This document shows positions 20,770 to 52,999 of a stretch of DNA of 64,000 bases, in pieces. The notes below the pieces were generated by a model that had not been told where the DNA came from, ran no database searches, and worked only from the letters and a program-made list of their open reading frames with translations. Source of the stretch: Escarpia spicata (taxonomy: Eukaryota > Annelida > Polychaeta > Sabellida > Siboglinidae); assembly GCA_963995525.1 (NCBI GenBank), contig OZ023206.1, positions 48,360,733-48,424,732 of the forward strand, in the 5' to 3' direction. The position numbers were made by a program, and so were the translations under genes. How positions within the stretch are numbered: the first letter of the stretch is position 1; each line of letters opens with the position of its first letter.

Positions 20770-22035
20770 TCGTATATATATAGTGAACAGGAATGGTCCA
20801 AGAACTGACCCCTGCGGGACACCGCAAGTTAGTCTGTGAGGTTTAAACTGCTCACCGGCAATCAACACCGTGTATTGTTTGTGTTGTAGGTAGGCAGCGA
20901 ACCATGACAAACAGTGATCGTCGACGCCGATGATGTTGCTCAGTGTGTTTAAAAGAATGGCATGATCAATTGTATCAAATGCTGCGCTCAGATCAATTAG
21001 CAGCAGCACCACACCTTTGCGTTCGTCCATGTACCGAATCACATTGTCATGCACATGCAGAAGCGCAGTTTCAGTACTACAGTCCTGTCGGTACGCTGAT
21101 TGCAACGGCATATACAGGTTGTTTTCACGCATGTGTGCATTCAACCGGTTTGCCACAATCATCTCGACTAACTTTGATAAAAAGCACATGTTATAAATAG
21201 GCCGATAGCTTTTCAAAATGTCACTATCAAGACTTGCGTTTTTCAATATGGGTGTGATGACAGCAACTTTCATTTCATCAGGCATTCCTTCCAGCAAACA
21301 CTTGTTGATGATGTTCATACTAGGCTTTGTCATGACATCAGAGCACTCTTTTACCAAGTTTGAAGGCATCGTGTCAAGTTTGCAAGTCTGCGATGATGAC
21401 TTGCTCAGTAGTTGCGCGGTTTCTTCTTGTGTGACAGGCACGAAAGTAGAGCGATGACAGTCTGTGACAGAATGATTTTTGCTCACAAAGTCGGTACTCA
21501 CACCATGGACATCTGGCGCTTGTAGTGTGGTGCGAATACACAGGATGTTATCCTCAAAATAGTGTGCAAAGTCGTTGGTGAGCGATTCGGCACATTCGTA
21601 GGTTGGCAGTGTTGCTGTGTTACCCCGATGCAGCAGCTAGTTTGCGATGTTGTAGAATTGCGCTTGGTTCCGGACGTCCGACAATGTTTTCTCGTAATGG
21701 ATTTTTCGCTTCAGGGCTCATGTTGTTAACTGTGTTTCTTTGTTATACATACATGTCTCGGTGCACTGTTAATTGTGTCCTTCTGTATTTATGTTCAAGC
21801 CGCTTATGTTTACCTTTTGCAACTATGATGTCCGCGTTGTACCATGGCACGTCGTTTTTCACGGTGATGGTGCACTCTCTAGCAGGAGCATGTTGGTCGA
21901 ATATTGACAACAAAGTGTTGTTGTAACGAGAAAATGCTGCTGCTGCCGATTCGCTGGCTTGCTGACTAGTCAGACCAGAGCAAGTAATGTCATGGCTGAT
22001 TTTCTGATGGTTGCTAATTTTCAACTTACGTACAT
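20770..22035 (-). pseudogene. L2-like LINE reverse transcriptase, left-arm copy (C-terminus missing)
   Basis: Minus strand. The EN-RT linker (FDQHAPARECTITVKN then VPWYNADI) is followed in another frame by RT: PILKNASLDSDILKSYRPI, LIDLSAAFDTIDHAILL (catalytic palm motif A) and GVPQGSVLGPFLFTIY (motif B). The copy stops at the palindrome boundary before the YADD motif. It is inserted in Gypsy pol in opposite orientation. Frameshifts between the linker and RT show it is dead. The right-arm copy continues to the natural 3' end. Confidence 0.9.
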
Positions 22036-23475
22036 TCATTATTCTCTTTGATGGGACTGTAGTTGTGATAGGTACGGTAAAGATAACACTCGACATGCCA
22101 ATGCCCACCGACGTCGAAGGAGTACGCCGCCTAATTGGCACCGTACAGTACCTAGGCAAGTTTGCGAAGGGATTGACCGACCTCTCAGCCCCGTTGCATG
22201 AACTCATACGCAAGGAAAACGAATTCACATTGAACGAATTCCACACCAACGCGGTGCGTGCGATACACGACAAGCTCAGTAACGCCCCAGTGCTGCATTA
22301 CTGCGACGTGAATAAAGACCTAACAACGCAGACGCGTCGCAGACGGGGCTGGGAGCTGCGCTCATGCAGGACGAACAGCCGATATGTTAGCAAGCAGAGA
22401 CATGATGGACTCCGAACACAATTACGCACAGATCGATAAAGAACTGTTGGCCATGGTGTTCCCATGTTAGCGGGGTTCAACGAATACATCTACGGACAGG
22501 ATGTAGTTCACGTGGAATCAGTCCACCAGCTGCTAGAAAGTATCTTCAAGAGATAAATTCACATGGCACCGAAGCGCCTGCAACGTATGAGACTGCGACT
22601 GCAGCAATAACCACTAGAGGAGAGGTACAAGAAAAGATTAGAAATGTATGTGACCGTTACGTTGAGCCGAGCTTACAACACTAAAGCCAAACGATGTACT
22701 CATACCGATGTCAATAAAGTTGACGACTCGGAAGAGAATAATTATATTCAGTGTCATCATCATGCAGCCTGAACAGAAAATGATCGAGCTGCAGCACGCC
22801 ACCAAGGACGGCACAGTGTTGCGGGAACTCGAAAAGGCAATCAAGACAGGGTGGCCAGCCGAGAGTACCGGCAGTTAAGTACTAAAGCCGTACTTCCAGT
22901 TCAAAGACGAACTGTTTGTTTAAGATGGCATGATTTTCAAGGGCGACATGCTAATAATCTACCGTAGGATGGGAGCGAGACTAGTGAAACTAATACACCA
23001 TGACACATTGTTGTAGAAGGACGCCTGCGCAGGGCGCGCGAGGTCGTCTATTGGCCCTGTATGAACCACTTCAGCATTACAACGCACGTCGACCGGAACA
23101 GTGACGCGAGAAGTTGCAAACGCACGAGTTCCCCAATCTGCCATGGTTAAAGGTTGCAACGGACTTGTTTGAGCTCGACGGACAACATTATGCCATACTG
23201 GTAAACTACTACAGTAACGTCTTCGAGATCAATGAACTGAAGAAAACCATGGCAGAGGCTGTTATCAATGCTTTGCCGCCATATTTCGTGCGTCACGGGG
23301 TTCCTTAGATTTTAATCAGCGAGAACACTTCACAATATCGATCACAGGAATTTGCGCACAGAACATCAAACAGCACGCACTACCCGCAAAGCATTGGGAA
23401 AGCTGAGAACGCTGTGAAAACAGCTAAATCTTTGCTCAAGAAGGTCAAACTGGATAGATGTGATCCACTGAATCC
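22036..23475 (+). pseudogene. Ty3/Gypsy pol (RT end, RNase H, integrase), left-arm copy
   Basis: Plus strand. MPMPTDVEGVRRLIGTVQYL then KFAKGLTDLSAPLHELIR is the RT-RNase H connection of Gypsy elements. A frameshift follows, then RNase H words (GLGAALMQDEQP, SIFKR, MAPKRLQRMRLRLQ, LSRAY). Integrase follows with RRAREVVYWPCMNH and the catalytic core LPWLKVATDLFELDGQHYAI and NSTHYPQ..GKAENAVKTAK. Stops and frameshifts are frequent. The upstream gag-protease-RT half is absent from this arm; the downstream side is interrupted by the RTE-like LINE at 23,476. Confidence 0.9.
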
Positions 23476-26400
23476 AATGTCACGCCGGACCAGCACGCCA
23501 TACTGCTGTTGCCAACAAAATACAGTCTGTTGTTGCTGGGTTTACGTATCCATTTCCGCACGTTGCAGCCTTGGTGGATTGTCTATAGACAACTATTTCA
23601 TTTGCCAGTCTCCCCACTCGCCATACGTCTGCTCCCATCCACTCCTCTATGTCCTTCTCCCATTGTCTCCTAGGTCTTACTCTGCTTCTGCTGCCTTCCA
23701 CTTTTCCTTCCATTATTAGTATTTCTAGACAATGATGCTGTTTCGCATGGCCGAAAAAACTTAGTTTTAGTTTCTTTACAAAGGTCAATGAAGTCCCGGG
23801 TATAACACCAAGCTCATCTGCGATGGATTCGTTAGTTCTTCGTTCAGTCCACCAAACTCGTAATATCGTTGTATAACACTTGTTTTTAAATGCGTGTATA
23901 TGTTTAGTAATGTTCTTATTAAGAGTCCGGGTTTCGCATCCATACGTAGCAGTTGGAAATATGCAGTCTCGGATAATTCGTAGTTTCATACCTTTGTTCG
24001 TTGCTTTCCACAGCTTCTTCATCTCCGTCAACTTTTACTCGCCATTACAAACCTCCACTTGATCTCTTTCGTCCCATCTCCATCCGCTTCTATCAGTGAC
24101 CCCAGATATTCAAAACTTTCCACTCATTCTATTCCCTCGCCATCTACTGTGACTTCTGATGGTTCTCGACATCCGTTCACATACATAATCTTAGTCATCT
24201 TTACGTTTAGTTGCAATCCTTTCATCTCGCTGTGCTCTTTAACAGTAGTTATCAGTTTATGTAATCCTTCTTGTGTGTCGGATAGTAAAACTGTGTCATC
24301 GGCATATCTCAATTCATATATCTCCTGTCCGTTCACTTTTAATCCATTAAAATAATTGCTTCTTGTGTCAGTCTCGACCTCTCTCATGATATTCTCTGGG
24401 TAAAGACTGAATAGGTGTGGGGGGGACAAAATGCACCCTGTCTCACTCCCTTGCCGACTGCGAACCAATATGTGGTAGCACACTCTAATCTCACTGCAGA
24501 CTGCTGTCTAACATATACATTTTTGATAAGTGAAATCATTTTCTGGTCAAATGCCATGTGTATCAAGGTTTTCCAGAGTTGTTGATGACTAACATTATCA
24601 CAAGCTTTTGAATAATCTATGAAACAGATCCTAAGTTCATGGTTGAATTCTCTGTATTTTTTAATTAACATCTTCAGGTTGAAAATGTGATGTCTTGTTC
24701 CTCTTCCAGTATGAAAACCAGCTTGTGTTCTGTTGACTTCACATTCTAATTTGTTGTGATTCTCTTAATTATGATTTTTAGCATAATTTGTATCGCATGG
24801 CTGATGAGGGATATAGTCCTGTGGTTTGAGCATTCTTGTATGTCACCATTTTGGTATTGATATAAGGATGGCTCGTTTCCAGTCCATATGCCATATTCCA
24901 CGTTTCCATATTTTCTTGCGTAGTGTGTGATAGATATCCACGCCTGCTACGCCTCTTGCTCTTATTAGCTCTGCAGTGATGTCATAAGTGCCAGGTGAGT
25001 TTCCGTCTTTTCGACTTTTTATTACCCACTCCACCTCTGAACGGAAAGGCTCAAGTTCATCGTCTGGATCTATCCACTCCCTGCATTCATCCATGTCTAC
25101 CTGTTCTATTTCTTCTTTCTTAAACATGCTTTCAAATCATTGCTTCCATCTTTCAAGTATGTCATTGCTTTCTGTCAGAGTCATTCCCGTTTCATCTTTA
25201 ATAACGCCAAGTCTAGGTTTGAACGACTGTGTCATAGACTTGATTTCCTCGAATATACTGCGACTATCATTCCTTCTGATACATAGTTCTATCTTTTCAC
25301 ATTTCTTCTCTAGATATTTCTTCTTGTCTTCCTTACACATACGTTTAATCATCTTGCACTTTTCTCTGTATTTCTCATGATAATTCTCAGTCATTTCTTT
25401 GTTCTTCTTTAACTCTTCATTCATTTGCAGTGCATCTTTGCTTATCCATGACTGTTTCTGCCTCCTCCTTTTAGTGATGTGTTTGTCAGCTGATTCCATA
25501 ATGGTGTTCCTAATTTCTACTGACAATTCCTCTGGTTCCTTCTCGTCAGCCACTGTCTGTAATACTTCCTGACCTCTACTCGATATCCTTCTGTGATCAT
25601 GTCACGCCTCACTAACTCTTTCCCTCTCTTTATCTTTCTTAATTTTATCGCAATCTTGGCGCTTAGCAATTCATGGTCATAGTCACAATCGGCTCCTGGT
25701 AATGTCTTTGCATTAAACACAGACGTCCTCCATCATTTTTGGTATCAGCATAAAGTCGATTTGATTGCTGTTCCGACCATCTGGTGTTGTCCCAGTGTAC
25801 ACTATTCTTTGATGTTGTTTGAATAAGGTATTAGTGATCATCAGTTCATTCTCTATGATAAACATAATAAGTCTATCTCCTCTCCCATTTCTCTCGCCTA
25901 GTCCATATTTCCCGATATTTACATTCTTTTCTTCGTTTTGACACCTGCCAACTTTTGCATTGAAATCGCCCATCAGGACTACCATGACTCTTCTGTTTAC
26001 CTCGTCCACTGTTCGTTGCAGTGTATCATGAAACGTTTATATTACATCGTCGTCTGCAGTGCTCGTTGGTGCATACATTTGATTACATGTTATATTCGTG
26101 GGTTTTGCTCGTATTCGTATGGTAATAATTCTATCGTTGACCGGATTGTATCCTAAGAGTGCATTTTCAGTTTTCTTTGACATATAAAACGCAGCACCAC
26201 TCATCCCTTGTTTAGTTGCTCGTGAGTATACAAACTTTCCTCCTGAATCCGGGCGAAAGTGTCCTTGTCAGGTCAACCTGTGTTCCGCAATCCCTATTGT
26301 ATATCTACCCCATATCTTTCTGCTTCCGATGTTACCATTCGTAGTGTCCCATGACTCGTTTTTCTGATGTTCCATGTTGCCACATGGATTTTCCCTTTTA

Positions 26401-26640
26401 GTTTGTTGCTGCTGGTTTTACCTCCCGCACAGTCGGGCATACTACCGTCATCAGCTCTGGCGTTACTTCCAACATATCCAAGCTCTTCCCCAGTAAGTGT
26501 CGTTCTATCCAGCCCGGGGGGCTCACGACTAGGACCTCTCTTACTGTCTGTTTTCTCCATTAAGGTTTCTTGGGCTAATACATCGGTAGTTGCCCATTGC
26601 TTTCCGCTGGGTTGTGTATGGTTAACTCCATTATTCCTTG
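23476..26640 (-). pseudogene. RTE-like LINE (endonuclease-RT), left-arm copy, nearly full length
   Basis: Minus strand, five or more frames. N-terminal endonuclease: IHVATWNIRKTSHGTLRMV, VLMGDFNAKVG and a DFM block. Linker: FNAKTLPGADCDYDHELL. RT: ICFIDYSKACDNVSHQQLW (motif A), TGCILSPPHLFSLY (motif B) and YADDTVLLSDTQEGL (catalytic YADD). C-terminus: TYGCETRTLNKNITKHI, SFFGHAKQHHCLEI and RPRRQWEKDIEEWMGADVW. This is the endonuclease-RT often annotated as craniofacial development protein 2-like. It is inserted, antisense, near the end of Gypsy integrase. Frameshifts make it inactive. Confidence 0.88.
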
Positions 26641-26828
26641 ACTAAAAAGTCTTGCACCACAGGACAGCGGGTCACTGGTCCTTCCACATGCGTCTTGGTA
26701 GGTATCTTCTCAGCTAACAAAATTACGTTGCAGCAACGTTGCCATTACGTTACACTTTGGTTGTGGCAACGTTAAAATGGATGGTCCCTGTTACGTTGCC
26801 AAATCGTTTCATCAACACGTTATGCATA

Positions 26829-27128
26829 ACATTCCCACAACCTTCTAGCAACATTCCCACAACCTTCCCACAACCTTCCCACAACCTTCCAGCGACATTC
26901 CTACAACATTCCCACAATCTTCCAGCAACATGCCCACAACCTTCCTACAACATTGTCACAACCTTCCTACAACATTCCCACAGCCTTCCAGCAACATTGT
27001 CACAACCTTCCTACAACATTCCCAAAGCCTTCCAGCAACATGCCCACAACCTTCTTACAACATTCCCACAACCTTCCCACAACATGCCCACAACCTTCTT
27101 ACAACATTCCCACAACCTTCCCACAACA
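26829..27128 (+). repeat. Minisatellite with 11-bp unit (CCCACAACCTT)
   Basis: About 27 variants of CCCACAACCTT, CCAGCAACATT, CCTACAACATT and GTCACAACCTT in register. All plus-strand frames stay open, giving shadow proteins rich in Pro/Thr/Phe/Gln/His. It directly follows the LINE 5' end. A flanking stretch (26710-26820) has repeated CAACGTT words. Confidence 0.92.
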
Positions 27129-28349
27129 TGAAGGGGTCAATAAGATGACGTCGATAAGAACAGAATACAAAGTTTGTTTGCAACATTTATTTTGTCTTTA
27201 TTACACGGTTCCCTGCAGCCGCATTCTGAAACAGGATTACAAAGTTTCCATAGATTAGGAAAGTTAGTAATAATTTTCAAAATGTTCAACTTTATTAGCT
27301 CAAAAACTTTAATAATGGCTCATCTCGACCGAACACCCAGACATTGTTTCTTTCATACTAAACTGGAAGATGTGTTTGCAAATTTGATTATTGAGCAGAA
27401 GCTAGGGTATGTTTATTTATACTGTTTTCTCATGTCCATGTGATGGTATTTGGTGTAGCGGACTACATGACTCGTCCAGCGCTTCCAAGCTGACAGCGAG
27501 GATATAGGCTTAGCTTTAAGTTTGTAGCTACACTTATACATGACGTCTATCGCAGTACACAATGGCAGGAACGTGTTGTGTTCTGCCACTGGGGGAAATT
27601 GTTACTCAAAATGCGGACCTTGCATTGGTGATTTTAGCTTATAACCGCACGTATGCTAATGTCAAAAAAATGTTTATTTTCATAGATGGGTTTATTGATC
27701 AGAGCTTGATCAAATTGAAGAGTTAGCAACAGGAAGATGTTGTTTAAAACCGTGCAGCTGGTTGAGACCAGTTGCAGGAGATTCGATAAACGCAAGCCGT
27801 TGGTTTATCGAATCAGAGGTAGTCTGGCAATTTAAATATAGGGGACGCCATGTTTAGACCAAGCAGACTAGTGCTCGGAGATGAAGAAAGGGTTTATGTG
27901 AACAGGAAGTAAGGATTAATTCCGGGAAATAATTATGTTCCACCAACGTATATAAACCAAAAACTTGCCGTGCATATGGCCGGACGATTTGGGATTATCT
28001 AGGTTTCCTGAGATACTTATAGAGGACGAAAACTTCGTTGATATAGTTTACTGAATGAACGACATCGGGAAGGAATTGGAATTGTAGTAAACTCGATTCA
28101 AGTTGTTACATATTCTTTTACGAGTATGTCTTGATGCTCAAATAGACAGTGTTTATTGGGCTGGGTGATGGTTCAGTTATCCCAGTCTCAACAGTTGTTC
28201 TAGTTTGAGAACAGCATACTATGTTGAACGAGGAATAGCCTGTACACCGGGTACACTGTTCTGATATACTGTCACGCTCTCTGCAAGCTCGCTTGACAGT
28301 CCTACCTCTCCAGTTCGCACGTCGACAAGGACAGTGGCAGTTGAGCACA
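27129..28349. other. Unassigned left-arm DNA
   Basis: No domain is recognised in the open frames (for example 27174-27443). It contains a perfect hairpin at 27780-27814. It lies within the Gypsy element's span, so it is probably another insertion. Confidence 0.4.
27780..27814. repeat. Perfect 12-bp stem hairpin
   Basis: GATTCGATAAAC, an 11-base spacer, then GTTTATCGAATC. The symmetry is exact. Could be an element end or a regulatory site; nothing ties it to a family. Confidence 0.7.
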
Positions 28350-28839
28350 ACGCAGACCAGTGAAGGTCAGCCTCCACTACGACTACGTCTTTCTTAGACG
28401 TGGGTCTTGGTACTTAATGCACCTTTAACTAACGGTGTTGGCATTTTAATATTTGTGTGGATGTTGTAACATTGGGTTTAGGTTAGCTGTACGTTCTATA
28501 CCTACAAGACTGTATTGTATGTTGTTCCTGTGAACGTTCGTAAATTGATCAGTGTTCTTTAACCTCTCGATGTTGCCGCTATGCTATCGTGCATTTCCAG
28601 GAAGGCAGTAGTTGCCATTTTGTACGCTATGTTGGTTTTGCGTAACCAAAATCCGTGTTGATGTTGTCATATTAATTACTTGCGATGTTACTAGCATATA
28701 TAACACTCCATGGCACATATGGCTGGATTTAGATGTTTTCGGTAAATGTTTACACCGCGGTATATGCTTTGTCTGCTACGTGTCATGATATTGTCTGTTA
28801 TGTTAGCAATGATCTTCCTTTATGTCTGTTGATTTATTG

Positions 28840-29515
28840 TAGTTGAGTCGGGGTCTCAACTGGTAAGTGCGGGAGGGATGTAAAGGTCGATCATGTTTAG
28901 ACCGAATGGCACCGGTGTTATAATTGGAATAGTTGGTAGAAACTTATTCATAGAATATCGTACGTGGCTAGGGAAACACTGAGCGAGATTGGGAAATAGC
29001 TTGCTTCCATAAAGATTGTCGGGATAGCCGATCTGAATAAACACTGACAGTAGAGAAGCGAAGAGTCAACGATTAATATATCAGTTGTATGGTGGCTAGG
29101 GAAACATTGAGCGGTCAGCTGTAAAATGATTGCCGGGATAGCCGGTTTGAATAATTACAGTCAGTAGATACTACAAATTAAAGCATTTTAGTTCCGCCCG
29201 GATTAGTGCTCCCAATTAATAGCTGCCGGACAATTGGCACCTTAATCAGTTAAGGTTGCACATATTTCATTGCAGGAGATCATTGTTTGTCAGTAATGTT
29301 GTATGTCAGATAACTGCTTGTCCGCCAGCGTGTTGATTGTTGAGTAATGTGGGACATTGATGTCCGTGGGACATAGATGATTATCTGTAGACGGTATAAA
29401 AGGAGACAGAACTATAGAGTTGGGGAGATCTCTTTTGTGTTGCTAGAGGTCATGCTGCTGTACGTTGTGCAATAAAAGCCTATGGTATAGGTCGAGTCTG
29501 AACTTCTGCCATTTT
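28840..29515 (+). mobile_element. Putative solo LTR or LTR-like insertion, left arm
   Basis: Contains a TATA box in promoter-like context (GGTATAAAAGGAG at 29393) and a polyadenylation signal 70-80 bp downstream (AATAAAAGCC at 29471), the spacing of an LTR R region. Upstream are two ~80-bp direct repeats (GGCTAGGGAAACACTGAGCG at 28970 and its copy at 29092), as in U3 enhancers. It interrupts Gypsy pol just before its C-terminal tail. The ends are not certain. Confidence 0.45.
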
Positions 29516-29526
29516 TAATGTGAGAC

Positions 29527-29919
29527 TTCGCTAGTCCTGACTAGGGAGAATCCTGAACGAAGTAGGGAGGACACCTAGCTGCGATGTCTTGTACAATACG
29601 GCATCGAGGTCGCCGGTCATATATATCGGCGCAACAGACAGCAGTTCAGGGCAACCAAGAGTTGGCGCCCTTCGGGACTGCAGCTGATGACCTGACCCCA
29701 GGCGAGGGAGTGTCCAAGCCTCCAGCACCGATCTCCAACCCGACCGGTCAACGACAACCAGCTGTTGTTAACATTCCGATATCGCCATATCATCGCGCGA
29801 ACACGCCGCAAGCGACAACGAACGATATGCCGAAGCGAGACGAACCATGTGCAAGACGCATGAGACTGCGTAACCACGACGGCTTATTAATTAAACATGA
29901 ATCCCTAAACTCTGAATAA
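29527..29919 (+). pseudogene. Gypsy pol C-terminal tail, left arm
   Basis: HIYRRNRQQFRATKSW in one frame matches the conserved (Y)RRNR..LR tail after Gypsy integrase. A frameshift leads into a Pro/Thr-rich end (PTGQRQPAVVNIPISPYH, then MRLRNHDGLLIKHESLNSE and stop) that finishes just before the polypurine tract. The right-arm mirror (46770-47162) differs at 4 of 111 residues in the shared frame. Confidence 0.7.
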
Positions 29920-29935
29920 AAAATATAAAAAGGGA

Positions 29936-30261
29936 CGTCACGAGACTGTCATGAGATACCCCAGCTGATCCCACCGGGGGGTGTATTTGGACTCGATGCA
30001 TTGCATCAACTTTTGAACTCAAGTCAATACCCACATGGATAGTAACTTGGTAGATTGAGTAGTGGGCGCTGCCGTTGTATAGAGTAGTGGACGCTGCCGT
30101 TGTATAGAGTAGTGGGCGCTGCCGTTGTATAGAGTAGTGAACCAGTCTAGGCTAGGGTTAGATTAGTGCGCACGTGTAGCTAGATAGGTGGGTAATAAAC
30201 ATATATGATAATGACGTTTTGTTTGTATATTGTTCAGCTATATACAAGCAATGCCGTTACA
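29936..30261 (+). mobile_element. Gypsy 3' LTR, left arm
   Basis: Preceded by a purine tract AAAAAGGGA (29927-29935), the expected polypurine primer. Begins CGTCACGAGACTGTC and ends GCCGTTACA, matching the reverse complement of the 5' LTR at 54727-54974. Contains three tandem 25-bp units (GTAGTGGGCGCTGCCGTTG...) at about 30058-30135 that occur once in the 5' LTR. Confidence 0.85.
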
Positions 30262-30800
30262 AATATTTACTAAATGTATGAAAACAAACTACATCATTAC
30301 ATGTATTTAAGCATCATGACGTGTTCGCAGATACTCGTTGTTTGTTTACCGATAGGCCCTAGGCATGATAGAGTTGAATTGTCTAATTATATTCGTCTTG
30401 CTATGCTATTTTTATATGAGGGTACACATAATCGTTATTCTGTCTGCGTCTACTCCATGTTGTCAAGTCCATGACGCAGGGGTCGTTTTGTTGAAGTATT
30501 CGCCACGCTCTCGTGGTTCCTGCGATTGTTAGGTTTCGTATTAAGAGCACATTACGATTTACGCTTCGAACAACTGATTTACTTCATACATTCCGTGAGA
30601 ATGTTGACATATATGGGGTACAGTTAATTTGTTTTCGCCGTCGCGCCGACTTAACTTCAGCTTCTTCTAACATAGACCGGGACACATTCCAAAGGTGTAG
30701 GGGTGCACTATCGGGGGAACATTCAAAGAAAGGTCAAGGGACACGCCAAATTCCAGTGGTCTAGGGGACACGTCCCCTCAGGCTCCCTGGATCCACCTGT
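30262..30800 (-). repeat. Dispersed repeat and block A, left arm
   Basis: Adjacent to the LTR is a ~100-bp block (reverse complement of GGGCCTATCGGTAAAC...GTAAATATT) that also follows the 5' LTR at 54,975. Beyond it lies the dispersed repeat also found at 8565-8850. Two frames here (66 and 83 codons) are identical or nearly so in the other arm, but have no recognisable domain. Confidence 0.7.
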
Positions 30801-30837
30801 GCGAAATGCAAGTCCTAAGCAAACAATTCTATGAAAT

Positions 30838-30955
30838 GTTTAAAGAATATTCTATAGAAAATTATGTTATAGAATATTCTATAGCAATTGCGCGCTTTTG
30901 TATAGAATATTCTGTAGACAACACACAAATCTTATAGAATATTCTATAGAAAATG
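30838..30955. repeat. Four TATAGAATATTCTATAG palindromes, left arm
   Basis: AGAATATTCT cores at 30844, 30871, 30904 and 30936, spaced 27-33 bp, each flanked by TAT/ATA arms that extend the palindrome. The core matches the GAAnnTTC unit of heat-shock elements. Mirrored in the right arm at about 45734-45851. Confidence 0.8.
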
Positions 30956-31148
30956 ACATGACTACAGGTTGTCAAATTTCATACAAAATTAATACTCATT
31001 AATACAGGTGCAAATGTTGCATGACCATCATAGATGATCACATATCATATTTTAATACATTAACCACACAGGCAATCCACAGTAATATCCATGTAGATGG
31101 ATTGACCAAATTAATATAAAAAAGGTATCGAGAGCATATATGTACGGA

Positions 31149-31151
<3 letters not shown>

Positions 31152-31212
<61 letters not shown>

Positions 31213-31250
31213 TATATGTGTGTGTGTGTGCGCGTGTGTGTGTGTGTGTG
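31152..31250. repeat. (TA)n(TG)n microsatellite, left arm
   Basis: About 25 TA dinucleotides, then CACATATATATATG and a (TG)n run interrupted by CGCG. The left tract is 21 bp longer than its right-arm mirror at 45455-45540. Confidence 0.95.
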
Positions 31251-31364
31251 ACGGCCTAGAAAAACCAGTCACATATGTATTTTTATTCAAGAAATGGAAA
31301 GCATCTCTATTTTTACTTCCAATACAGTTTACTGTATTCAAATATTCCCACCAGAACCAAAGTT

Positions 31365-31820: not shown

Positions 31821-31822
31821 CA

Positions 31823-32230: not shown

Positions 32231-32349
32231 GCCATGGTTATGGGCGTAGCCATCTTTGATTTTTCGAAGATTGTAAACACGAAAGAAATTCGTCCCGTAG
32301 TCTGTATTTCCAACGAAATCCGGTTCGAAAACACGTTAAACTGTTAAGA

Positions 32350-41655: not shown

Positions 41656-41721
41656 ATTATTATTATTTTTATTAGTATTTGTATTTAAATTATACATATT
41701 ATCATTATTATTGGAAATTTA

Positions 41722-42510
41722 TTCATGGCGAACGGCCAATAAACGTTAATTTGGCAAACGGCCATGATATGTTATTTGTGGCGAACGGCCGTGAACACTG
41801 AATACTTGGCAAATGGCCATGATAAGTATTTTTTATTAATGGCGAACGGCCAAGAGACGGTAGTTTGGCAAATGGCCATCGAGTAATTGTTTGGCAAACG
41901 GTCGTGAACACTTAAGACATGACAATGCTAAGTATTGTTATTAATGACGAACGGCCAAGAGACGGTAGTTTGGCAAATGGCCATCAAGTAATTGTTTGGC
42001 AAATGGCCGTGATCTCTTAATACATGACAACGCGAAGTATTGTTATTAATGGCGAACGGCCAAGAGACGTACATTTGGCAAACGGCCATGATATGTTCTA
42101 TTTTTGGCAAACAGCTGTGAACAGTCAATACTTGACAAACGGCCATAGCAAGTATTTTTGATTACTGGCAAACGGCCAAGACACGTTAATTTGGCAAATG
42201 GTCATGCTATGTTATCTTCAACGACTGGCCATGAACTTGGCAACCGGTGTGATAAGTATTTTATTAGTAGTAATGGCGAACGGCCAAGATGCAGTAATTT
42301 GGCAAGCAACCATGATATTAATTAATTAATTATATGTTGTTAGATACTTAAGATTTTAATTAAACTGGTATTAAAAATTTTTTTTAATTCATAATCATTT
42401 ATATGTTATTAATGGCGAACGGCCTAGAAGTTAATTTTGGCTCAAGGCCATGATAAGTAATATTTACAGCCAACAGGCGAGTAATTAATAATTGGCAAAC
42501 GTCCATAACC
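41722..42510 (-). repeat. Array of TGGC-N5-GCCA palindromic sites, right arm
   Basis: Inverted copy of the left-arm array with the same five-base spacing, for example TGGCGAACGGCCA, TGGCAAACGGCCA and TGGCAAATGGCCA. Most sites are conserved between the arms; a few differ by a single base. Confidence 0.9.
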
Positions 42511-42858
42511 TTTACTGGCATTAATAGTCGTCAACAATAAGAGGTGAAAAACAGTCACTGGCCTCTTAAAATATGGACACTAGCCAATTTAATTATGTCA
42601 AGCAAACACCAGTTTTGTCAATCACCCTTCAGAAATTAAACATGTCAAAGCCGCATAAACTTTGTGAAATTGGCTAATCGTATATCAATATTAACTGCGC
42701 AAGTAGTACTGGGACATGCACTGATATCACCGAGGTACTAATTCTTGCATACACTCATAAAGTTAATATTGGCAAACGGTCGCTGACATTTCCAACTGCA
42801 ACGGCAATCTTTATAACTTGGAGTCACAATTTACCCGTCATGCTATGCCCGGTGACAA

Positions 42859-43500
42859 ACAAAACCAGTGAACCGTAACTACCCGGCTTACGGCTTTAAA
42901 ATTTGTCCCACGGATGCTACGATATAAGCGAAGATTCCCGATGTCAGTAAAGTGAACACCTTCAGATCATAAAATATTCGCTTGGCTGTTCCATATATAC
43001 TTATGTCGCCAGCAAAACAGGCCCCGACTCCGGTTACATTCCATTTTGAGCAGAGACATTACCGCTGCCACTCAAGCTAGCGGACCCTTTTTCGAAATTA
43101 AAATGGCGCTACCTTCGCCGGCGCTCGATTTGGCACAGACATTCTTGCTTAAATCCTCTTGCCAACAATTCGTCGGCAAAGACACAAAGCCGTGATGCAA
43201 CGGACTGTGCAGTAGGAGAACATGTTCAGCCTAAATCATTGCCACCCCGCAAAACAATTACAATGTCAGGTTGTATCGCCGAAATCTGTGCCATGGCATA
43301 GGCATAACATTTGGTTGCCGAAAAGATAGATACGGTCCGGCCGATTGCTTCTACGGCCCGACCTGCTTTTCGAAGTTCGCAATTAACCCAGGGGAACTAG
43401 CGGACTCGACAAAGTCGCCCAACCAATATTCATGAGAATGTCCGATAATAAGTATTTCTAGATCAGAAATCGCAGCCGACATGATTACGGCCGACGCCAT
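42859..43500 (-). pseudogene. SGNH-hydrolase-type domain, right arm, decayed
   Basis: Mirror of 33209-33850, same start (MASAVIMSAAISDLEI) and motifs (IIGHSHEYW, GGNDLG, VHFTDIGNLRLYRSIRG). In this arm it is on the same strand as, and upstream of, the tyrosine recombinase. Small indels differ from the left copy (for example around 43085-43105). Confidence 0.7.
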
Positions 43501-44374
43501 TTATGATCGTCACAAGACTTCAAGACAAACAAAGGAAAACCACGAAGGCAGATATTAAACGAGCGATACTCATCTGTATTCGGCGCTCGAACGGTCTTCC
43601 TTTCGCGTTTTGGTAGACGTCAACGAAGTGTATCTGTATCTGCGTTTAAATCTAATTGATCTATGGGGTATACAAACAGTTAGAAATCAAGATTTAGAAG
43701 TATCAGGATATACACGACATGACACACAGTTACCTAACGCGGAAGTGGCGGCTTAACCGCTAATCCAAATCGTAGGCTGGGGCATAATCCTGACATGTCT
43801 TGATTGGCTGAAGGCACTGGGCTGTTTTATTAAGCCAAACAGCTGGAAGTAATTATCGCCTCAGCCAGTTACCTCACCACCCGCACTAGGCCTGTCCTGG
43901 CCATTGCATAAAATACAGTATGGTCTGCGTTCATACCTTCATTTGCGTCATCGGGTTGATTTTGAGATTTCGCTGCGATCTTTTAGCTAACATACTTATT
44001 TATAAGTTCACTAAGTAGTTTCCTGATTACCTAAGTGAAAGTTGTACTTTTTGTGTTTTTGTAACCGTGAAGTTCGTCCTAGGTTGCAGCGTTTTAGAAT
44101 TAAAAGCGCTCTAATTTGCGAAGGCTTAAAACCTAGGACAGAAGTTCCCATGCCCATATATGACTTATCGTTCGAAAGATATTTACAGCACGCAGTTCTC
44201 TAGCAGCAGTACGCATGAATACGTTGTAAGAAAATTGAGTGCGCAGTGAAAGTTAACGGAATTTTATTTGGAAGTTGGAAGTTGGATTGGAGTTGTTTGT
44301 GTAGTTCGATTAATTATTAGTTTAGTTTGATGTTACTGTAGTTTATATCTGTACATATTTCTTAACAGTTTAAC

Positions 44375-44887
44375 GTGTTTTCGAACCGGATTTCGTTGGA
44401 AATACAGACTACGGGACGAATTTCGTTTCGTGTTTACAATCTTCGAAAAATCAAAGATGGCTACGCCCATAACCATGGCATGGATGGACCGAAGACGGCG
44501 AAGTCGAACGATCTTGCTCGGTGTTTCAACGCATTGGCATTGGTGAACATGCAGTATATCGCAAGTGGGGACATCCTCAACGAACTTGTGAATGACTACT
44601 TTGTGACACACCCGATCGGCAATGATGACAATGATTCGGACTTGTCTGATTCGAGCGAGGACGACTTTGACCCGGAGCTGGCAGAGGAAGTGAACGGATC
44701 AGTCAATGGTGACAGTCAAACTGTTTATGATGACCCGAGGCGCAAGATGAGAACACAAACGCCTCTTTTCAGACCCAAACAACAACAGTTCTTTTTACAG
44801 CTAACCACATATTCATGGAAGAGTTTGCTACCTCTTGCGTGTTTATTAGTAATATACGTTTTTGCTAACAAATTACAACTTTTTTGA
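44375..44887 (+). CDS. Acidic ORF of unknown function, right arm (longer form)
   Basis: 170 codons, MFSNRISLEIQTTGRISFRV at the start, then the same MDGPKTAKSNDL..., acidic centre and C-terminal hydrophobic helix (SLLPLACLLVIYVFANKLQ) as the left copy. Whether the first 35 codons are real depends on a single-base difference between arms. No known domain. Confidence 0.4.
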   Translation: MFSNRISLEIQTTGRISFRVYNLRKIKDGYAHNHGMDGPKTAKSNDLARCFNALALVNMQYIASGDILNELVNDYFVTHPIGNDDNDSDLSDSSEDDFDPELAEEVNGSVNGDSQTVYDDPRRKMRTQTPLFRPKQQQFFLQLTTYSWKSLLPLACLLVIYVFANKLQLF

Positions 44888-45345
44888 TGGGTGCTCTCTT
44901 TAAATTATTAAACTTTAAAAGTAACCATAATTTGACAATAGTTTTAGTGTTCCAAAGCTGAGATACATAGTTACATTTTCTTCACTACATTGGACATGGT
45001 AATAGCACTGGATATTTTGATATAATATTAACACTGCAGCAAGATTTCATTTTGACATGAATTATGATGATTCCAGACACTACGAGTACTAATAATGTTT
45101 GATAGGTGCCCTTTTTAAAGTCTTGTAACTTTAAAAGTAGCCATCAGAATTTAATAATGATTTTTGTAAGCTATAGATAACAGACACAGCTACATCTGCT
45201 TCACTGGATTGTATATGGTTATAGCAGCAGATATTTTGTTATACCATCATGATGTTTCGTTTTCATGTGAATAATGATTCTCGACTTTAAACCTGAATTT
45301 TCTCCTGAATGAATTTTTCATACGGGCCCTCTTTAAATTATTGTA
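44887..45345 (+). repeat. ~220-bp tandem repeat, right arm
   Basis: Units begin near 44887, 45105 and 45325 (GGGTGCTCTCTTTAAATT, GGTGCCCTTTTTAAAGTC, GGGCCCTCTTTAAATTAT). Copies are strongly diverged. Confidence 0.6.
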
Positions 45346-45454
45346 ACTTTGGTTCTGGTGGGAATATTTGAATACAGTAAACTGTATTGGAAGTAAAAAT
45401 AGAGTTGCTTTCCATTTCTTGAATAAAAATACATATGTGACTGGTTTTTCTAGG

Positions 45455-45458
45455 CCGT

Positions 45459-45540
<82 letters not shown>
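45455..45540. repeat. (CA)n(TA)n microsatellite, right arm
   Basis: Mirror of 31152-31250, 21 bp shorter. Confidence 0.95.
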
Positions 45541-45733
45541 TCCGTACATATATGCTCTCGATACCTTTTTTATATTAATTTGGTCAATCCATCTACATGG
45601 ATATTACTGTGGATTGCCTGTGTGGTTAATGTATTAAAATATGATATGTGATCATCTATGATGGTCATGCAACATTTGCACCTGTATTAATGAGTATTAA
45701 TTTTGTATGAAATTTGACAACCTGTAGTCATGT

Positions 45734-45851
45734 CATTTTCTATAGAATATTCTATAAGATTTGTGTGTTGTCTACAGAATATTCTATACAAAAGCGCGCA
45801 ATTGCTATAGAATATTCTATAACATAATTTTCTATAGAATATTCTTTAAAC
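45734..45851. repeat. Four TATAGAATATTCTATAG palindromes, right arm
   Basis: Inverted counterpart of 30838-30955 with the same spacing; all four AGAATATTCT cores are preserved. Confidence 0.8.
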
Positions 45852-45889
45852 ATTTCATAGAATTGTTTGCTTAGGACTTGCATTTCGCA

Positions 45890-46427
45890 CAGGTGGATCC
45901 AGGGAGCCTGAGGGGACGTGTCCCCTAGACCACTGGAATTTGGCGTGTCCCTTGACCTTTCTTTGAATGTTCCCCCGATAGTGCACCCCTACACCTTTGG
46001 AATGTGTCCCGGTCTATGTTAGAAGAAGCTGAAGTTAAGTCGGCGCGACGGCGAAAACAAATTAACTGTACCCCATATATGTCAACATTCTCACGGAATG
46101 TATGAAGTAAATCAGTTGTTCGAAGCGTAAATCGTAATGTGCTCTTAATACGAAACCTAGCAATCGCAGGAACCACGAGAGCGTGGCGAATACTTCAACA
46201 AAACGACCCCTGCGTCATGGACTTGACAACATGGAGTAGACGCAGACAGAATAACGATTATGTGTACCCTCATATAAAAATAGCATAGCAAGACGAATAT
46301 AATTTGACAATTCAACTCTATCATGCCTAGGGCCTATCGGTAAACAAACAACGAGTATCTGCGAACACGTCATGATGCTTAAATACATGTAATGATGTAG
46401 TTTGTTTTCATACATTTAGTAAATATT
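45890..46427 (+). repeat. Dispersed repeat and block A, right arm
   Basis: Mirror of 30262-30800. Contains the 8565-type dispersed repeat (46130-46330) followed by block A (46330-46427: GGGCCTATCGGTAAACAAAC to GTAAATATT), which abuts the Gypsy 3' LTR directly. Confidence 0.7.
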
Positions 46428-46753
46428 TGTAACGGCATTGCTTGTATATAGCTGAACAATATACAAACAAAACGTCATTATCATATATGTTTATTACCCA
46501 CCTATCTAGCTACACGTGCGCACTAATCTAACCCTAGCCTAGACTGGTTCACTACTCTATACAACGGCAGCGCCCACTATTCTATACAACGGCAGCGTCC
46601 ACTACTCTATACAACGGCAGCGCCCACTATTCAATCTACCAAGTTACTATCCATGTGGGTATTGACTTGAGTTCAAAAGTTGATGCAATGCATCGAGTCC
46701 AAATACACCCCCCGGTGGGATCAGCTGGGGTATCTCATGACAGTCTCGTGACG
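46428..46753 (-). mobile_element. Gypsy 3' LTR, right arm
   Basis: TGTAACGGCATTGC to TCTCGTGACG on the plus strand; 326 bp because of three 25-bp units (CTCTATACAACGGCAGCGCCC) at about 46553-46630. Otherwise ~85-88% like the 5' LTR by eye, which implies an old insertion. Confidence 0.85.
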
Positions 46754-46769
46754 TCCCTTTTTATATTTT

Positions 46770-47162
46770 TTATTCAGAGTTTAGGGATTCATGTTTCATT
46801 AATAAGCCGTCGTGGTTATGCAGTCTCATGCGTCTTGCACATGGTTCGTCTCGCTTCAGCATATCGTTCGTTGTCGCTTGCGGCGTGTTCGCGCGATGAT
46901 ATGGCGATATCGGAATGTTAACAACAGCTGGTTGTCGTTGACCGGTCGGGTTGGAGATCGGTGCTGGAGGCTTGGACACTCCCTCGCCTGGGGTCAGGTC
47001 ATCAGCTGCAGTCCCGAAGGGCGCCAACTCTTGGTTGCCCTGAACTGCTGTCTGTTGCGCCGATATATATGACCGACGAACTCGATGCCGTATTGTACAA
47101 GACATCGCAGCTAGGTGTCCTCCCTACTTCGTTCAGGATTCTCCCTAGTCAGGACTAGCGAA
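46770..47162 (-). pseudogene. Gypsy pol C-terminal tail, right arm
   Basis: Mirror of 29527-29919 with YRRNRQQFRATKSW in one frame and the Pro-rich tail in another. Ends 16 bp before the 3' LTR, as expected of a pol terminus. Confidence 0.7.
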
Positions 47163-47173
47163 GTCTCACACTA

Positions 47174-47846
47174 AAAATGGCAGAAGTTCAGACTCGACCT
47201 ATACCATAGGCTTTTATTGCACACCGTACAGCAGCATGACCTCTAGCAACACAAAAAGAGATCTCCCCAACTCTATAGTTCTGTCTCCTTTTATACCGTC
47301 TACAGATAATCATCTATGTCCCACGGACATCAATGTCCCACATTACTCAACAATCAACACGCTGGCGGACAAGCAGTTATCTGACATACAACACTACTGA
47401 CAAACAATGATCTCCTGCAATGAAATATGTGCAACCTTAACTGATTAAGGTGCCAATTGTCCGGCAGCTATTAATTGGGAGCACTAATCCGGGCGGAACT
47501 AAAATGCTTTAATTTGTAGTATCTACTGACTGTAATTATTCAAACCGGCTATCCCGGCAATCATTTTACAGCTGACCGCTCAATGTTTCCCTAGCCACCA
47601 ACTGATATATTAATCGTTGACTCTTCGCTTCTCTACTGTCAGTGTTTATTCAGATCGGCTATCCCGACAATCTTTATGGAAGCAAGCTATTTCCCAATCT
47701 CGCTCAGTGTTTCCCTAGCCACGTACGATATTCTATGAATAAGTTTCTACCAACTATTCCAATTATAACACCGGTGCCATTCGGTCTAAACATGATCGAC
47801 CTTTACATCCCTCCCGCACTTACCAGTTGAGACCCCGACTCAACTA
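47174..47846 (-). mobile_element. Putative solo LTR or LTR-like insertion, right arm
   Basis: Mirror of 28840-29515 with the same TATA (CTCCTTTTATACC on the plus strand, near 47286) and polyadenylation signal (GGCTTTTATTGC, near 47211). Confidence 0.45.
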
Positions 47847-48332
47847 CAATAAATCAACAGACATAAAGGAAGATCATTGCTAACATAACAGACAATATCA
47901 TGACACGTAGCAGACAAAGCATATACCGCGGTGTAAACATTTACCGTAAACATCTAAATCCAGCCATATGTGCCATGGAGTGTTATATATGCTAGTAACA
48001 TCGCAAGTAATTAATATGACAACATCAACACGGATTTAGGTTACGCAAAACCAACATAGCGTACAAAATGGCAACTACTGCCTTCCTGGAAATGCACGAT
48101 AGCATAGCGGCAACATCGAGAGGTTAAAGAACACTGATCAATTTACGAACGTTCACAGGAACAACATACAATACAGTCTTGTAGGTATAGAACGTACAGC
48201 TAACCTAAACCCAATGTTACAACATCCACACAAATATTAAAATGCCAACACCGTTAGTTAAAGGTGCATTAAGTACCAAGACCCACGTCTAAGAAAGACG
48301 TAGTCGTAGTGGAGACTGACCTTCACTGATCT

Positions 48333-49160
48333 GCGTCTGACACAGCTTTACTATCCGACACACAAGAAGGATTACATAAACTGATAACTACTGTTAAAGA
48401 GCACAGCGAGATTAAAGGATTGAAACTAAACGTAAAGATGACTAAGATTATGGATGTGAACGGATGTCGAGAACCATCAGAAGTCACAGTAGATGGCGAG
48501 GGAATAGAATGAGTGGAAAGTTTTGAATATCTGGGGTCACTGATAGAAGCGGATGGAGATGGGACGAAAGAGATCAAGTGGAGGTTTGTAATGGCGAGTA
48601 AAAGTTGACGGAGATGAAGAAGCTGTGGAAAGCAACGAACAAAGGTATGAAACTACGAATTATCCGAGTCTGCATATTTCCAACGGCTACGTATGGATGC
48701 GAAACCCGGACTCTTAATAAGAACATTACTAAACATATACACGCATTTAAAAACAAGTGTTATACAACGATATTACGAGTTTGGTGGACTGAACGAAGAA
48801 CTAACGAATCCATCGCAGATGAGCTTGGTGTTATACCCGGGACTTCATTGACCTTTGTAAAGAAACTAAAACTAAGTTTTTTCGGCCATGCGAAACAGCA
48901 TCATTGTCTAGAGATACTAATAATGGAAGGAAAAGTGGAAGGCAGCAGAAGCAGAGTAAGACCTAGGAGACAATGGGAGAAGGACATAGAGGAGTGGATG
49001 GGAGCAGACGTATGGCGAGTGGGGAGACTGGCAAACGAAATAGTTGTCTATAGACAATCCATCAAGGCTGCAACGTGCGGAAATGGATACGTAAACCCAG
49101 CAACAACAGACTGTATTTTGTTGGCAACAGCAGTATGGCGTGCTGGTCCGGCGTGACATT
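48333..49160 (+). pseudogene. RTE-like LINE C-terminal remnant, right arm
   Basis: Plus strand. Begins inside the RT just after the YADD motif (LLSD.QEGLHKLITTVKEHS), then the open 183-codon C-terminal part MTEMKKLWKATNKGMKLRII, YGCETRTLNKNITKHI, FFGHAKQHHCLEI, RPRRQWEKDIEEWMG. The 5' three quarters are missing because of the 4.05-kb deletion. Confidence 0.88.
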
Positions 49161-50567
49161 GGATTCAGTGGATCACATCTATCCAGTTTGACCTTCTTGA
49201 GCAAAGATTTAGCTGTTTTCACAGCGTTCTCAGCTTTCGCAATGATTTGCGGGTAGTGCGTGCTGTTTGATGTTCTGTGCGCAAATTCCTGTGATCGATA
49301 TTGTGAAGTGTTCTCGCTGATCAAAATCTAAGGAACCCCGTGACGCACGAAATATGGCGGCAAAGCATTGATAACAGCCTCTACCATGGTTTTCTTCAGT
49401 TCATTGATCTCGAAGACGTTACTGTAGTAGTTTACCAGTATGACATAATGTTGTCCGTCGAGCTCAAACTAGTCCGTCGCAACCTTTAACCATGGCAGAT
49501 TGGGGAACTCGTGCGTTTGCAACTTCTCGCGTCACTGTTCCGGTCGACGTGCGTTGTAATGCTGAAGTGGTTCATACAGGGCCAATAGACGAACTCGCGC
49601 GCCCTGCGCAGGCGTCCTTCTACAACAATGTGTCATGGTGTATTAGTTTCACTAGTCTCGCTCCCATCCTACGGTAGATTATTAGCATGTCGCCCTTGAA
49701 AATCATGCCATCTTAAACAAACAGTTCGTCTTTGAACTGGAAGTACGGCTTTAGTACTTAACTGCCGGTACTCTCGGCTGGCCACCCTGTCTTGATTGCC
49801 TTTTCGAGTTCCCGCAACACTGTGCCGTCCTTGGTGGCGTGCTGCAGCTCGATCATTTTATGTTCAGGCTGCATGATGATGACACTGAATATAATTATTC
49901 TCTTCCGAGTCGTCAACTTTATTGACATCGGTATGAGTACATCGTTTGGCTTTAGTGTTGTAAGCTCGGCTCAACGTAACGGTCACATACATTTCTAATC
50001 TTTTCTTGTACCTCTCCTCTAGTGGTTATTGCTGCAGTCGCAGTCTCATACGTTGCAGGCGCTTCGGTGCCATGTGAATTTATCTCTTGAAGATACTTTC
50101 TAGCAGCTGGTGGACTGATTCCACGTGAACTACATCCTGTCCGTAGATGTATTCGTTGAACCCCGCTAACATGGGAACACCATGGCCAACAGTTCTTTAT
50201 CGATCTGTGCGTAATTGTGGTCGGAGTCCATCATGTCTCTGCTTGCTAACATATCGGCTGTTCGTCCTGCATGAGCGCAGCTCCCAGCCCCGTCTGCGAC
50301 GCGTCTGCGTTGTTAGGTCTTTATTCACGTCGCAGTAATGCAGCACTGGGGCGTTACTGAGCTTGTCGTGTATCGCACGCACCGCGTTGGTGTGGAATTC
50401 GTTCAATGTGAATTCGTTTTCCTTGCGTATGAGTTCATGCAACGGGGCTGAGAGGTCGGTCAATCCCTTTGCAAACTTGCCTAGGTACTGTACGGTGCCA
50501 ATTAGGCGGCGTACTCCTTTGACGTCGGTGGGCATTGGCATGTCGAGTGTTATCTTTACCGTACCTA
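49161..50567 (-). pseudogene. Ty3/Gypsy pol (RT end, RNase H, integrase), right arm
   Basis: Mirror of 22036-23475. Same motifs: MPMPTDVKGVRRLIGTVQYL, APKRLQRMRLRLQ, EVVYWPCMNH, LP..KVATD(.)FELDGQHY and HYPQIIAKAENAVKTAK. Integrase Asp and Glu positions are recognisable, but the frame is broken in several places. Confidence 0.9.
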
Positions 50568-52999
50568 TCACAACTACAGTCCCATCAAAGAGAATAATGA
50601 ATGTACGTAAGTTGAAAATTATCAACCATCAGAAAATCAGCCATGACATTACTTGCTCTGATCTGACTGGTCAGCAAGCCAGCGAATCGGCAGCAGCAGC
50701 ATTTTCTCGTTACAACAACACTTTGTTGTCAATATTCGACCAACATGCTCCTGCTAGAGAGTGCACCATCACCGTGAAAAACAACGTGCCATGGTACAAC
50801 GCGGACATCATAGTTGCAAAAGCTAAACATAAGCGGCTTGAACATAAATACAGAAGGACACAATTAGCAGTGCACCGAGACATGTATGTACAACAAAGAA
50901 ACACAGTTAACAACATGAGCCCTGAAGCGAAAAATCCATTACGAGAAAACAATGTCGGACGTCCGGAACCAAGCGCAATTCTACAACATCGCAAACTAGC
51001 TGCTGCATCGGGGTAACACAGCAACACTGCCAACCTACGAATGTGCCGAATCGCTCGCCAACGACTTTGCACACTATTTTGAGGATAACATCCTGTGTAT
51101 TCGCACCACACTACAAGCGCCAGATGTCCATGGTGTGAGTACCGACTTTGTGAGCACAAATCACTCTGTCACAGACTGTCGTCGCTCTACTTTCGTGCCT
51201 GTCACACAAGAAGAAACCGCGCAACTACTGAGCAAGTCATCATCGAAGACTTGCAAACTTGACACGATGCCTTCAAACTTGGTAAAAGAGTGCTCTGATG
51301 TCAAGACAAAGCCTAGTATGAACATCATCAACAAGTGTTTGCTGGAAGGAATGCCTGATGAAATGAAAGTTGCTGTCATCACACCCATATTGAAAAAGGC
51401 AAGTCTTGATAGTGACATCTTGAAAAGCTATCGGCCTATTTATAACATGTGCTTTTTATCAAAGTTAGTCGAGATGATTGTGGCAAACCGGTTGAATGCA
51501 CACATGCGTGAAAACAACCTGTATATGTCGTTGCAATCAGCGTACCGACAGGACTGTAGTACTGAAACTGCGCTTCTGCATATGCATGACAATGTGATTC
51601 GGTACATGGACGAACGCAAAGGTGTGGTGCTGCTGCTAATTGATCTGAGCGCAGCATTTGATACAATTGACCATGCCATTCTTTTAAACACACTGAGCAA
51701 CATCATCGGCGTCGACGATCACTGTTTGTCATGGTTCGCTGCCTACCTACAACACAAACAATACACGGTGTTGATTGCCGGTGAGCAGTTTAAACCTCAC
51801 AGACTGACTTGCGGTGTCCCGCAGGGGTCAGTTCTTGGACCATTCCTGTTCACTATATATATACGACTCCTCTCGCGTCGCTACTCAGCCACCACGGCAT
51901 GGCTTACCATCTAAATGCAGATGACATCCAACTTTTACAAGAATTTAGCCTGAGCGATAAAATGTCACCCGACATTGCCATCAAGATCATTCTTCAATGG
52001 ATGAAAACCAACATGCTAAAACTCAATGATGACAAAACGGAGATCATTATCGTCCAACCGAAATCAGCAACCGAAAATGTTCTTCCTGATGGTGTAACTA
52101 TCGGAAACGTTCGCGTGTTACCCAACATTTGGTTGTGATCTTTGATTCTAATATGTCCCTTGAGCGACACGTAACTAACATTTGTAGAAATGCGTATTAC
52201 CACCTCCATAGTCGATATTTAGACAAAGAACACACAACACAACTTGTGCATGCGCTAGTCATTAAGCGAATTGACTGCTGCAATAATCTTCTTAAAGGAT
52301 TGCCAGCGACAGTAATTGAGAAACTACATCGTGTCCAAAATGCATGTGCTCGTATCATAACGATGCGTTCGAAACGAGACCACGTCACGCCCATGCTCTT
52401 TGAGCTGCACTGGCAACCTGTGAAGAGTCGCATTATTTTCAAGACCCTACTTCTCATTTTCAAATGCCTTCATGGGCTCGCACTTCCATATCTATCAGCA
52501 CTTCTCTATCCGTATCGCCCAACACGCTGTCTACGCTCCTCCGATCAGCTACTCCTTAAACAACCCACTACCCGAAATAAAATCGGCGTACAAGCATTCT
52601 CTTTTGCAGCTCCAAAAGCATGAAATCAACTATCACTTACAGTGCGCCAATGCACTAGTGTCAATCAATTTAAAGTGGCACTGAATACGCATCTTTTCAC
52701 AAATTATTTGAACCTTCGATGATCGATGATCATCATTATTTAGACCTTTATTTTAATTTATTTAGTATTATAATTAATATATTTTATTGTTTTAATGGTT
52801 TGCATAATTGTGTTTATTTATATATTTTAAGACAGTATAGTGGATTTTACTTAGTACTAATGATTGCATAGTATTTTTAAACTATATATCGCATGATGTT
52901 ATTTATTTATTTATTTGCATTAACCACTGTAAAGCGCCCCAGAACAATTATTTGGATGGGGCGCTATATAAGAAATAAATTATTATTATTATTATTATT
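50568..52999 (+). mobile_element. L2-like LINE, 5'-truncated, complete 3' end (right copy)
   Basis: Plus strand. EN-RT linker (DQHAPARECTITVKNNVPWY), RT motif A LIDLSAAFDTIDHAI, motif B GVPQGSVLGPFLFTIY, then after a frameshift the palm motif C as NADDIQLLQEFS (YADD to NADD), thumb/C-terminal KRIDCCNNLLKGLPATVIEK, RVQNACARIITM, LHWQPVKSRIIFK and AFSFAAPKA. The 3' UTR ends GGCGCTATATAAG then (ATT)n at 52980-52999, the classic L2-type tail. The apurinic endonuclease domain is missing. It interrupts Gypsy RT in antisense. The palindrome boundary at 51,866 lies between motif B and motif C. Confidence 0.92.

Follow-up and report, generated by a model that had tools for sequence, protein, structure and literature searches.

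Inverted duplications in the human germline carry a single-copy spacer with short inverted homology at its edge, an arrangement that has been read as the fold-back of a broken end; their spacers measure 766-70,466 bp, and inverted microhomology of 2-8 bp is present at 13 of the 21 joints sequenced (PMC3907307). In yeast and in human copy-number variants, template switching of the ODIRA type involves inverted repeats of ~5 nt separated by 40-80 nt, and a one-sided deletion stabilises the resulting palindrome (PMC10766186). The conserved palindromes of primate X chromosomes have a median arm identity of 99.953% (PMC8981503). In the excerpts of the papers on which we draw here and below, the palindromes available for comparison are those of tumours, yeast, human disease chromosomes, and the sex chromosomes of primates and plants. 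Here we analyse a palindrome of ~31 kb from the siboglinid tubeworm Escarpia spicata, contained in a stretch of 64,000 bp (assembly GCA_963995525.1, contig OZ023206.1, positions 48,360,733 to 48,424,732) that we refer to as the window and by whose coordinates all features are given.

The palindrome probably arose in a one-off fold-back inverted duplication and has decayed since. Like the human fold-back duplications, as the excerpts describe them, it has a spacer in single copy whose edge carries short inverted homology, and an inverted copy whose outer end lies on unrelated DNA. Unlike them, it spans ~17 kb instead of megabases, its putative original loop is 57 bp (within a spacer of 346 bp) instead of 766-70,466 bp, and it is old enough for its arms to differ by 0.9%. 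With the ODIRA junctions of the cited excerpt it would share a loop in the 40-80-nt range and a one-sided deletion that lengthened the spacer, whereas the 64-kb window holds two copies and one inverted joint, with no triplication or second inverted joint. Primate X palindromes, in the portion of PMC8981503 consulted, resemble it in having inverted arms of tens of kilobases around a single-copy spacer; the arms here differ from theirs in being 99.07% identical, against the median of 99.953%, and in consisting of transposon remains with no recognised host gene. Duplications of the fold-back kind are already known, and this palindrome would be a further case. A literature search on palindromes in tubeworms returned nothing relevant in titles or the opening lines of abstracts, which is no claim of absence in annelids.

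Architecture of the palindrome and its ancestral side

The window (39.6% GC, no N) has one large inverted duplication inside it. The left arm (20769..38141, minus strand, 17,373 bp) is an inverted copy of the right arm (38488..51867, plus strand, 13,380 bp) and retains a block of ~4 kb that is gone from the latter. Between the inverted copy and the original stands a spacer (38142..38487, 346 bp) that is single copy within the window and holds the 3' part of a recombinase pseudogene in minus-strand reading. Comparison of the window with its own minus strand gave three collinear blocks: 20769-24298/51867-48338 at 98.8%, 28350-36126/48336-40583 at 97.2% with a minisatellite counted in, and 35041-38141/41587-38488 at 95.3% with the minisatellite out of register. 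The exact arm ends lie at 38141/38488 on the inner side and 20769/51867 on the outer side. The palindrome is far beyond chance: the window contains 24,932 exact inverted 25-mer matches, whereas a single mononucleotide shuffle yielded 0 and the two flanks taken by themselves 62. A preceding sequence-only reading had described a palindrome of ~31 kb with arms of 13-17 kb and a spacer of 346 bp; the self-comparison confirms this layout and the spacer length, and moves each outer end by one base.

Global alignment of one arm to the other required 9 gaps in all. Two of these (31 and 49 bp) fall in a 40-bp minisatellite, which has 27.4 copies in the left arm (35041..36126) and 29.4 in the right (40503..41668), one of 20 bp falls in a microsatellite, and one is a net gap of 4,050 bp. 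Four others are small (1, 1, 1 and 4 bp), and the last, of 4 bp, stands at the alignment end, outside the arms.

Two remains of mobile elements cross the boundaries of the right arm. At the inner boundary, a degenerate and frameshifted tyrosine-recombinase pseudogene (38142..38825, minus strand) runs from 38825 down through the right arm and the spacer, and its minus-strand frame 38621-38142 passes from arm to spacer without a break. The block read over the boundary itself (38489-38487), RFKYSARQGPHSLHVR, agrees with the consensus of relatives, RFKHSARQGPQSLQVR, and the left copy breaks at that point. These relatives comprise 11 of 68 candidates, at E 0.01 or better (P0004-P0014), the best being 91% identical over 65% of the query. 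The left arm has a truncated recombinase copy at its inner end, from 38008, whose tblastn match (38008-38184, residues 1-59, 76%) overruns the arm end slightly into poorly matching sequence.

The spacer frame bears a conserved GHS(F/L)RIGAATAAA block, as do the DIRS-like recombinase elements among which its motifs would place the pseudogene; unlike those elements, it is a frameshifted fragment. Pfam gave no recombinase hit to support the name, the piece matching only a zinc ribbon weakly (E 0.12). Among solved structures there was no credible relative (one titin chain, E = 1), and DNA relatives in viral contigs, sought for the native 3' end, amounted to 227 pattern matches with 0 confirmed. 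A second, more diverged recombinase fragment (62% over 69 residues) lies near the first in both arms, at 37411-37617 (plus) and 39012-39218 (minus).

At the outer boundary, the reverse transcriptase of a long interspersed nuclear element (LINE), here LINE-A (51000..52135, plus strand), spans position 51867 with a frameshift. Positions 3-142 of the Pfam family RVT_1 are matched by the open reading frame (ORF) 51000-51911 (E 3.6e-23), and positions 136-193 by 51794-52135 in the next frame (E 0.0032), while the left-arm copy of LINE-A stops at RVT_1 position 135. Since the recombinase is continuous into the spacer and LINE-A is continuous into the right flank, the spacer, the right arm and the flank beyond it belong to a single older sequence; judged by this continuity at both boundaries, the left arm is the derived, inverted copy. 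A third pointer to right-arm ancestry is hinted at by an ORF of 173 residues (44366-44884, plus; mirrored at 31826-32335, minus) that is nearly intact in both arms, the left copy differing in frame near the start. Its one database relative (P0135, E 0.001, 96% identity, on a contig of 1,076 bases) sides with the right arm against the left in the near-start reading frame and at two more residues, and departs from both arms at other residues. A Pfam scan of this ORF found nothing credible, with only a weak SMMA_C match (E 0.09).

LINE-A thus continues uninterrupted on the original, right side, whereas at the outer end of the inverted copy it is fused to unrelated DNA. The left outer junction (20768/20769, within 20764..20773) joins it to a fragment of LINE-C in the left flank (20429..20768, minus strand), of which a 76% identical copy lies at 62444-62766 (plus). 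The match between these copies begins at the very base beyond the arm end, and the copy at 62444-62766 extends upstream past the joint point with different sequence, so that the LINE-C of the left flank is cut at the joint. Within the limits of a 76% relative, no bases common to both sides of the joint were seen, and by eye no target-site duplication was found in the 25 bp outside either end of the palindrome. From its sequence, the joint looks like a product of end joining. Insertion of LINE-C into a longer arm was ruled out as the cause of the left boundary, the right flank sharing only LINE-C with positions 1-20768 at E 1e-3. A 157-bp tandem repeat (4.2 copies, 19760-20429) adjoins the LINE-C fragment.

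Divergence between the arms

The net gap of 4,050 bp reflects a block of 4,051 bp found in the left arm only (24299..28349) and one extra base at 48337 in the right arm, around which the block edges meet. In the left arm, the minus-strand reverse transcriptase of a further element, LINE-B, is unbroken over 24299, the lower edge of the block, with RVT_1 positions 34-137 and 120-194 coming from ORFs 24387-24764 and 24127-24507. Because LINE-B is continuous across this edge, the right arm has lost 4,051 bp since the duplication, in what the sequence indicates was end joining. The same continuity rules out a transposon insertion as the source of the difference. What had been noted earlier as a 4-kb gap therefore stands as a difference between the arms and is now identified as a right-arm deletion. 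The left-arm-only block also contains a 22-bp minisatellite (13.7 copies, 26828-27129).

Before the remaining differences were counted, left-arm positions 34600-36130 (minisatellites) and 31100-31260 (microsatellite) were dropped. Of the 11,626 sites compared outside tandem repeats, 108 differ between the arms (0.93%, standard error 0.09; Jukes-Cantor distance 0.0093), which corresponds to an identity of 99.07%; 57 of the differences are transitions and 51 are transversions. Small indels are far fewer than substitutions, a pattern unlike that of long-read error. The sequence-only reading had put the arms at about 98-99% alike, which the count bears out, and the substitutions, minisatellite and microsatellite changes and 4-kb difference that it listed were all recovered in the global alignment. 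Its view that the palindrome reflects a real, older event likewise agrees with arms that differ mostly by substitutions and by few small indels.

It had further remarked that palindromes of this size are often maintained by gene conversion, as the arms would be here in a palindrome of the sex-chromosome type, kept alike for the sake of a useful gene. Some such upkeep could explain why the differences are mildly clustered (variance/mean 1.55, 1.85 and 2.01 at 250, 500 and 1000 bp; P = 0.007, 0.009 and 0.027), why the third-longest identical run between the arms exceeds expectation (P 0.012), and why the 173-residue ORF is nearly intact on both sides. However, the longest identical run does not stand out statistically (P 0.27; second-longest, P 0.08), Pfam recognised no host gene in the 70 arm-side pieces scanned, and the arm identity of 99.07% falls short of the 99.953% reported for conserved primate X palindromes in the excerpt of PMC8981503. 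The GC/AT differences split evenly between the arms (42 versus 43), a count that is no test of GC-biased conversion without an outgroup. With identity below the primate median and only weak clustering, primate-style upkeep by gene conversion is not indicated, and a palindrome of the sex-chromosome type is very improbable. Occasional gene conversion between the arms is possible; it would belong to the history after the duplication, is compatible with a fold-back origin, and so overlaps with the readings of origin weighed below.

The inner joint and the origin of the inverted copy

The inner joint bears a 12-bp word (38140..38151, plus strand) with a perfect inverted match at 38209..38220 (minus strand), where the partner is native recombinase coding sequence (IMEAG). 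The coordinates come from an exact string search and the limits of the match were set by eye. The first 2 bp of the word lie within the arm homology and 10 of its 12 bases beyond it, and the partner site is 57 bp away in the spacer. A spacer-edge match of this kind occurred in a fraction of 0.0002 of 20,000 mononucleotide shuffles and 0.0006 (0.06%) of 5,000 dinucleotide shuffles; among 4,558 overlapping 346-bp windows taken from the flanks, 13 had one. At the opposite edge of the spacer the inverted match is only 3 bp. We regard the 12-bp word as a candidate remnant of the tip of the original arm. Read in this way, the coordinates would place the original fold-back loop at 38152..38208 (57 bp), and the left counterpart of 38221..38489 would subsequently have been lost; this segment of 269 bp has no left-arm counterpart and shows a 2-bp microhomology (TG). 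Such a later deletion around a loop of ~57 bp probably gave rise to the spacer seen today.

A fold-back duplication would account for the locus as follows. The ancestral order would have been an unknown sequence, the recombinase tail, the spacer, the right arm and the right flank. At the recombinase tail, an end that had broken or stalled would have folded back at a short inverted repeat with its halves ~57 bp apart and then used its own chromosome as the template for an inverted copy of about 17-17.6 kb. Copying would have halted inside LINE-A, and the end would have been joined, without visible overlap of bases, to the broken LINE-C that today forms the left flank. Afterwards, a one-sided deletion at the 2-bp microhomology would have removed 269 bp from the centre, end joining would have cost the right arm ~4 kb, and the arms would have diverged to ~0.9% through substitutions and changes in repeat copy number. 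Taking fold-back and template switching together, the palindrome is very probably a biological duplication.

Template switching of the ODIRA type is an unlikely origin, even though the inner joint could accommodate it. Its joints are described in the excerpt of PMC10766186 as inverted repeats of ~5 nt that are 40-80 nt apart, a range that includes the putative 57-bp loop, and two serial switches could also have produced the 12-bp word and the jump after it. The process predicts an inverted triplication and a second inverted joint, whereas at the left outer joint two LINEs are fused and the 64-kb window has no third copy; a third copy or second joint could lie outside it or have been lost. An assembly artefact, in which two haplotypes or repeat copies of one locus were joined head to head, is improbable too. 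Marine invertebrate alleles might show ~1% substitutions, changes in repeat copy number, and the presence or absence of 4 kb. Palindromic chimeras are also known in long reads after whole-genome amplification, according to the excerpt of PMC6218980. A folded read, however, would leave the arms almost identical, whereas outside repeats they differ by 108 substitutions and four indels. Allelic arms would imply allelic flanks, yet the only left-right flank match at E 1e-3 is the one LINE-C copy, at 76%. The artefact would also need two false joins, one of them happening to bear a 10-12-bp inverted copy of adjacent sequence. The sequence-only reading took the arm differences as evidence against a folded-read artefact, and for a folded read the excess of substitutions over indels upholds it; the argument does not extend to a join of two haplotypes, which is disfavoured by the unrelated flanks and the inner joint. 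Arm differences alone do not rule out a haplotype join, and the joints are the more telling evidence. Superficially, the locus looks like a giant fold-back transposon, or some other mobile element whose inverted ends measure 13-17 kb, in that long inverted repeats surround a short, recombinase-bearing centre. However, the LINE in which the right end would lie extends on into the flank, so that the ends are not self-contained, the recombinase is frameshifted, and no target-site duplication accompanies the ends. We give this explanation practically no weight. The recombinase fragment was damaged by the breakpoint and did not bring it about.

Several observations count against a fold-back origin as set out here. 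The case is built from one assembled sequence, and the flank-side RVT_1 match past 51867 is weak (17.6 bits, under the Pfam cut-off of 29.6). The spacers of human fold-back duplications are longer, at 766-70,466 bp in the excerpt of PMC3907307. The 12-bp word may instead be a templated insertion, or may have arisen by chance at about 0.06-0.3%. A short inverted sequence does stand at the boundary of spacer and copy, as the 12-bp perfect match, part or all of which may have existed before the duplication.

Sequence content of the window and significance of the palindrome

Once most right-arm mirror pieces and the minisatellite had been set aside, the window yielded 203 ORF pieces of at least 62 residues, of which 160 were scanned with Pfam. 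Reverse transcriptase was matched by 5 of the 70 pieces of the arm-side set and 2 of the 90 pieces of the other set, and one arm-side piece matched an endonuclease just under its cut-off (E 9.5e-6). Single matches were found to GBP_C (weak, arm-side), DUF4408 and ALKBH8_N, the last above its cut-off yet inside the frame of a flank LINE. Pfam recognised no host gene among the 160 scanned pieces, and no structural RNA reached the gathering score in Rfam (0 matches).

The right flank carries a LINE (59546-62050, plus strand) with two long adjacent frames of 334 and 500 residues. The second frame has 570 relatives at E 1e-40, and the only three among the 120 listed that bear an organism name, at 77-84% identity, come from the tubeworm Ridgeia piscesae, in keeping with the earlier attribution of the window to an animal genome. 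An array of the 8-bp unit ATACACAC (35 copies, 97% matching) occupies 5892-6173, and a dispersed repeat with 69-91% identity occurs in the arms and both flanks (30089-30767, 8538-8786, 13080-13184 and 54727-55052). Degenerate frames at 22040-23470 (plus strand) resemble by eye the RNase H/integrase part of a long terminal repeat retrotransposon, an unproven likeness with no Pfam hit in the scanned pieces.

Taken as a whole, the palindrome would be a decaying scar in transposon-rich DNA with no evident function. The type of event looks like an ordinary, old accident of chromosome repair, whose joints are unusually readable here. We suggest only tentatively, and with some doubt, that it is a natural, inherited fold-back palindrome of an invertebrate in which each step of birth and stabilisation can be read from one sequence. 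If this is true, the same marks of birth and the same central trimming would be found in invertebrate transposon-rich DNA with no apparent selection for the structure, and the locus would be a fossil record of how a large palindrome is born and stabilised where selection seems absent.

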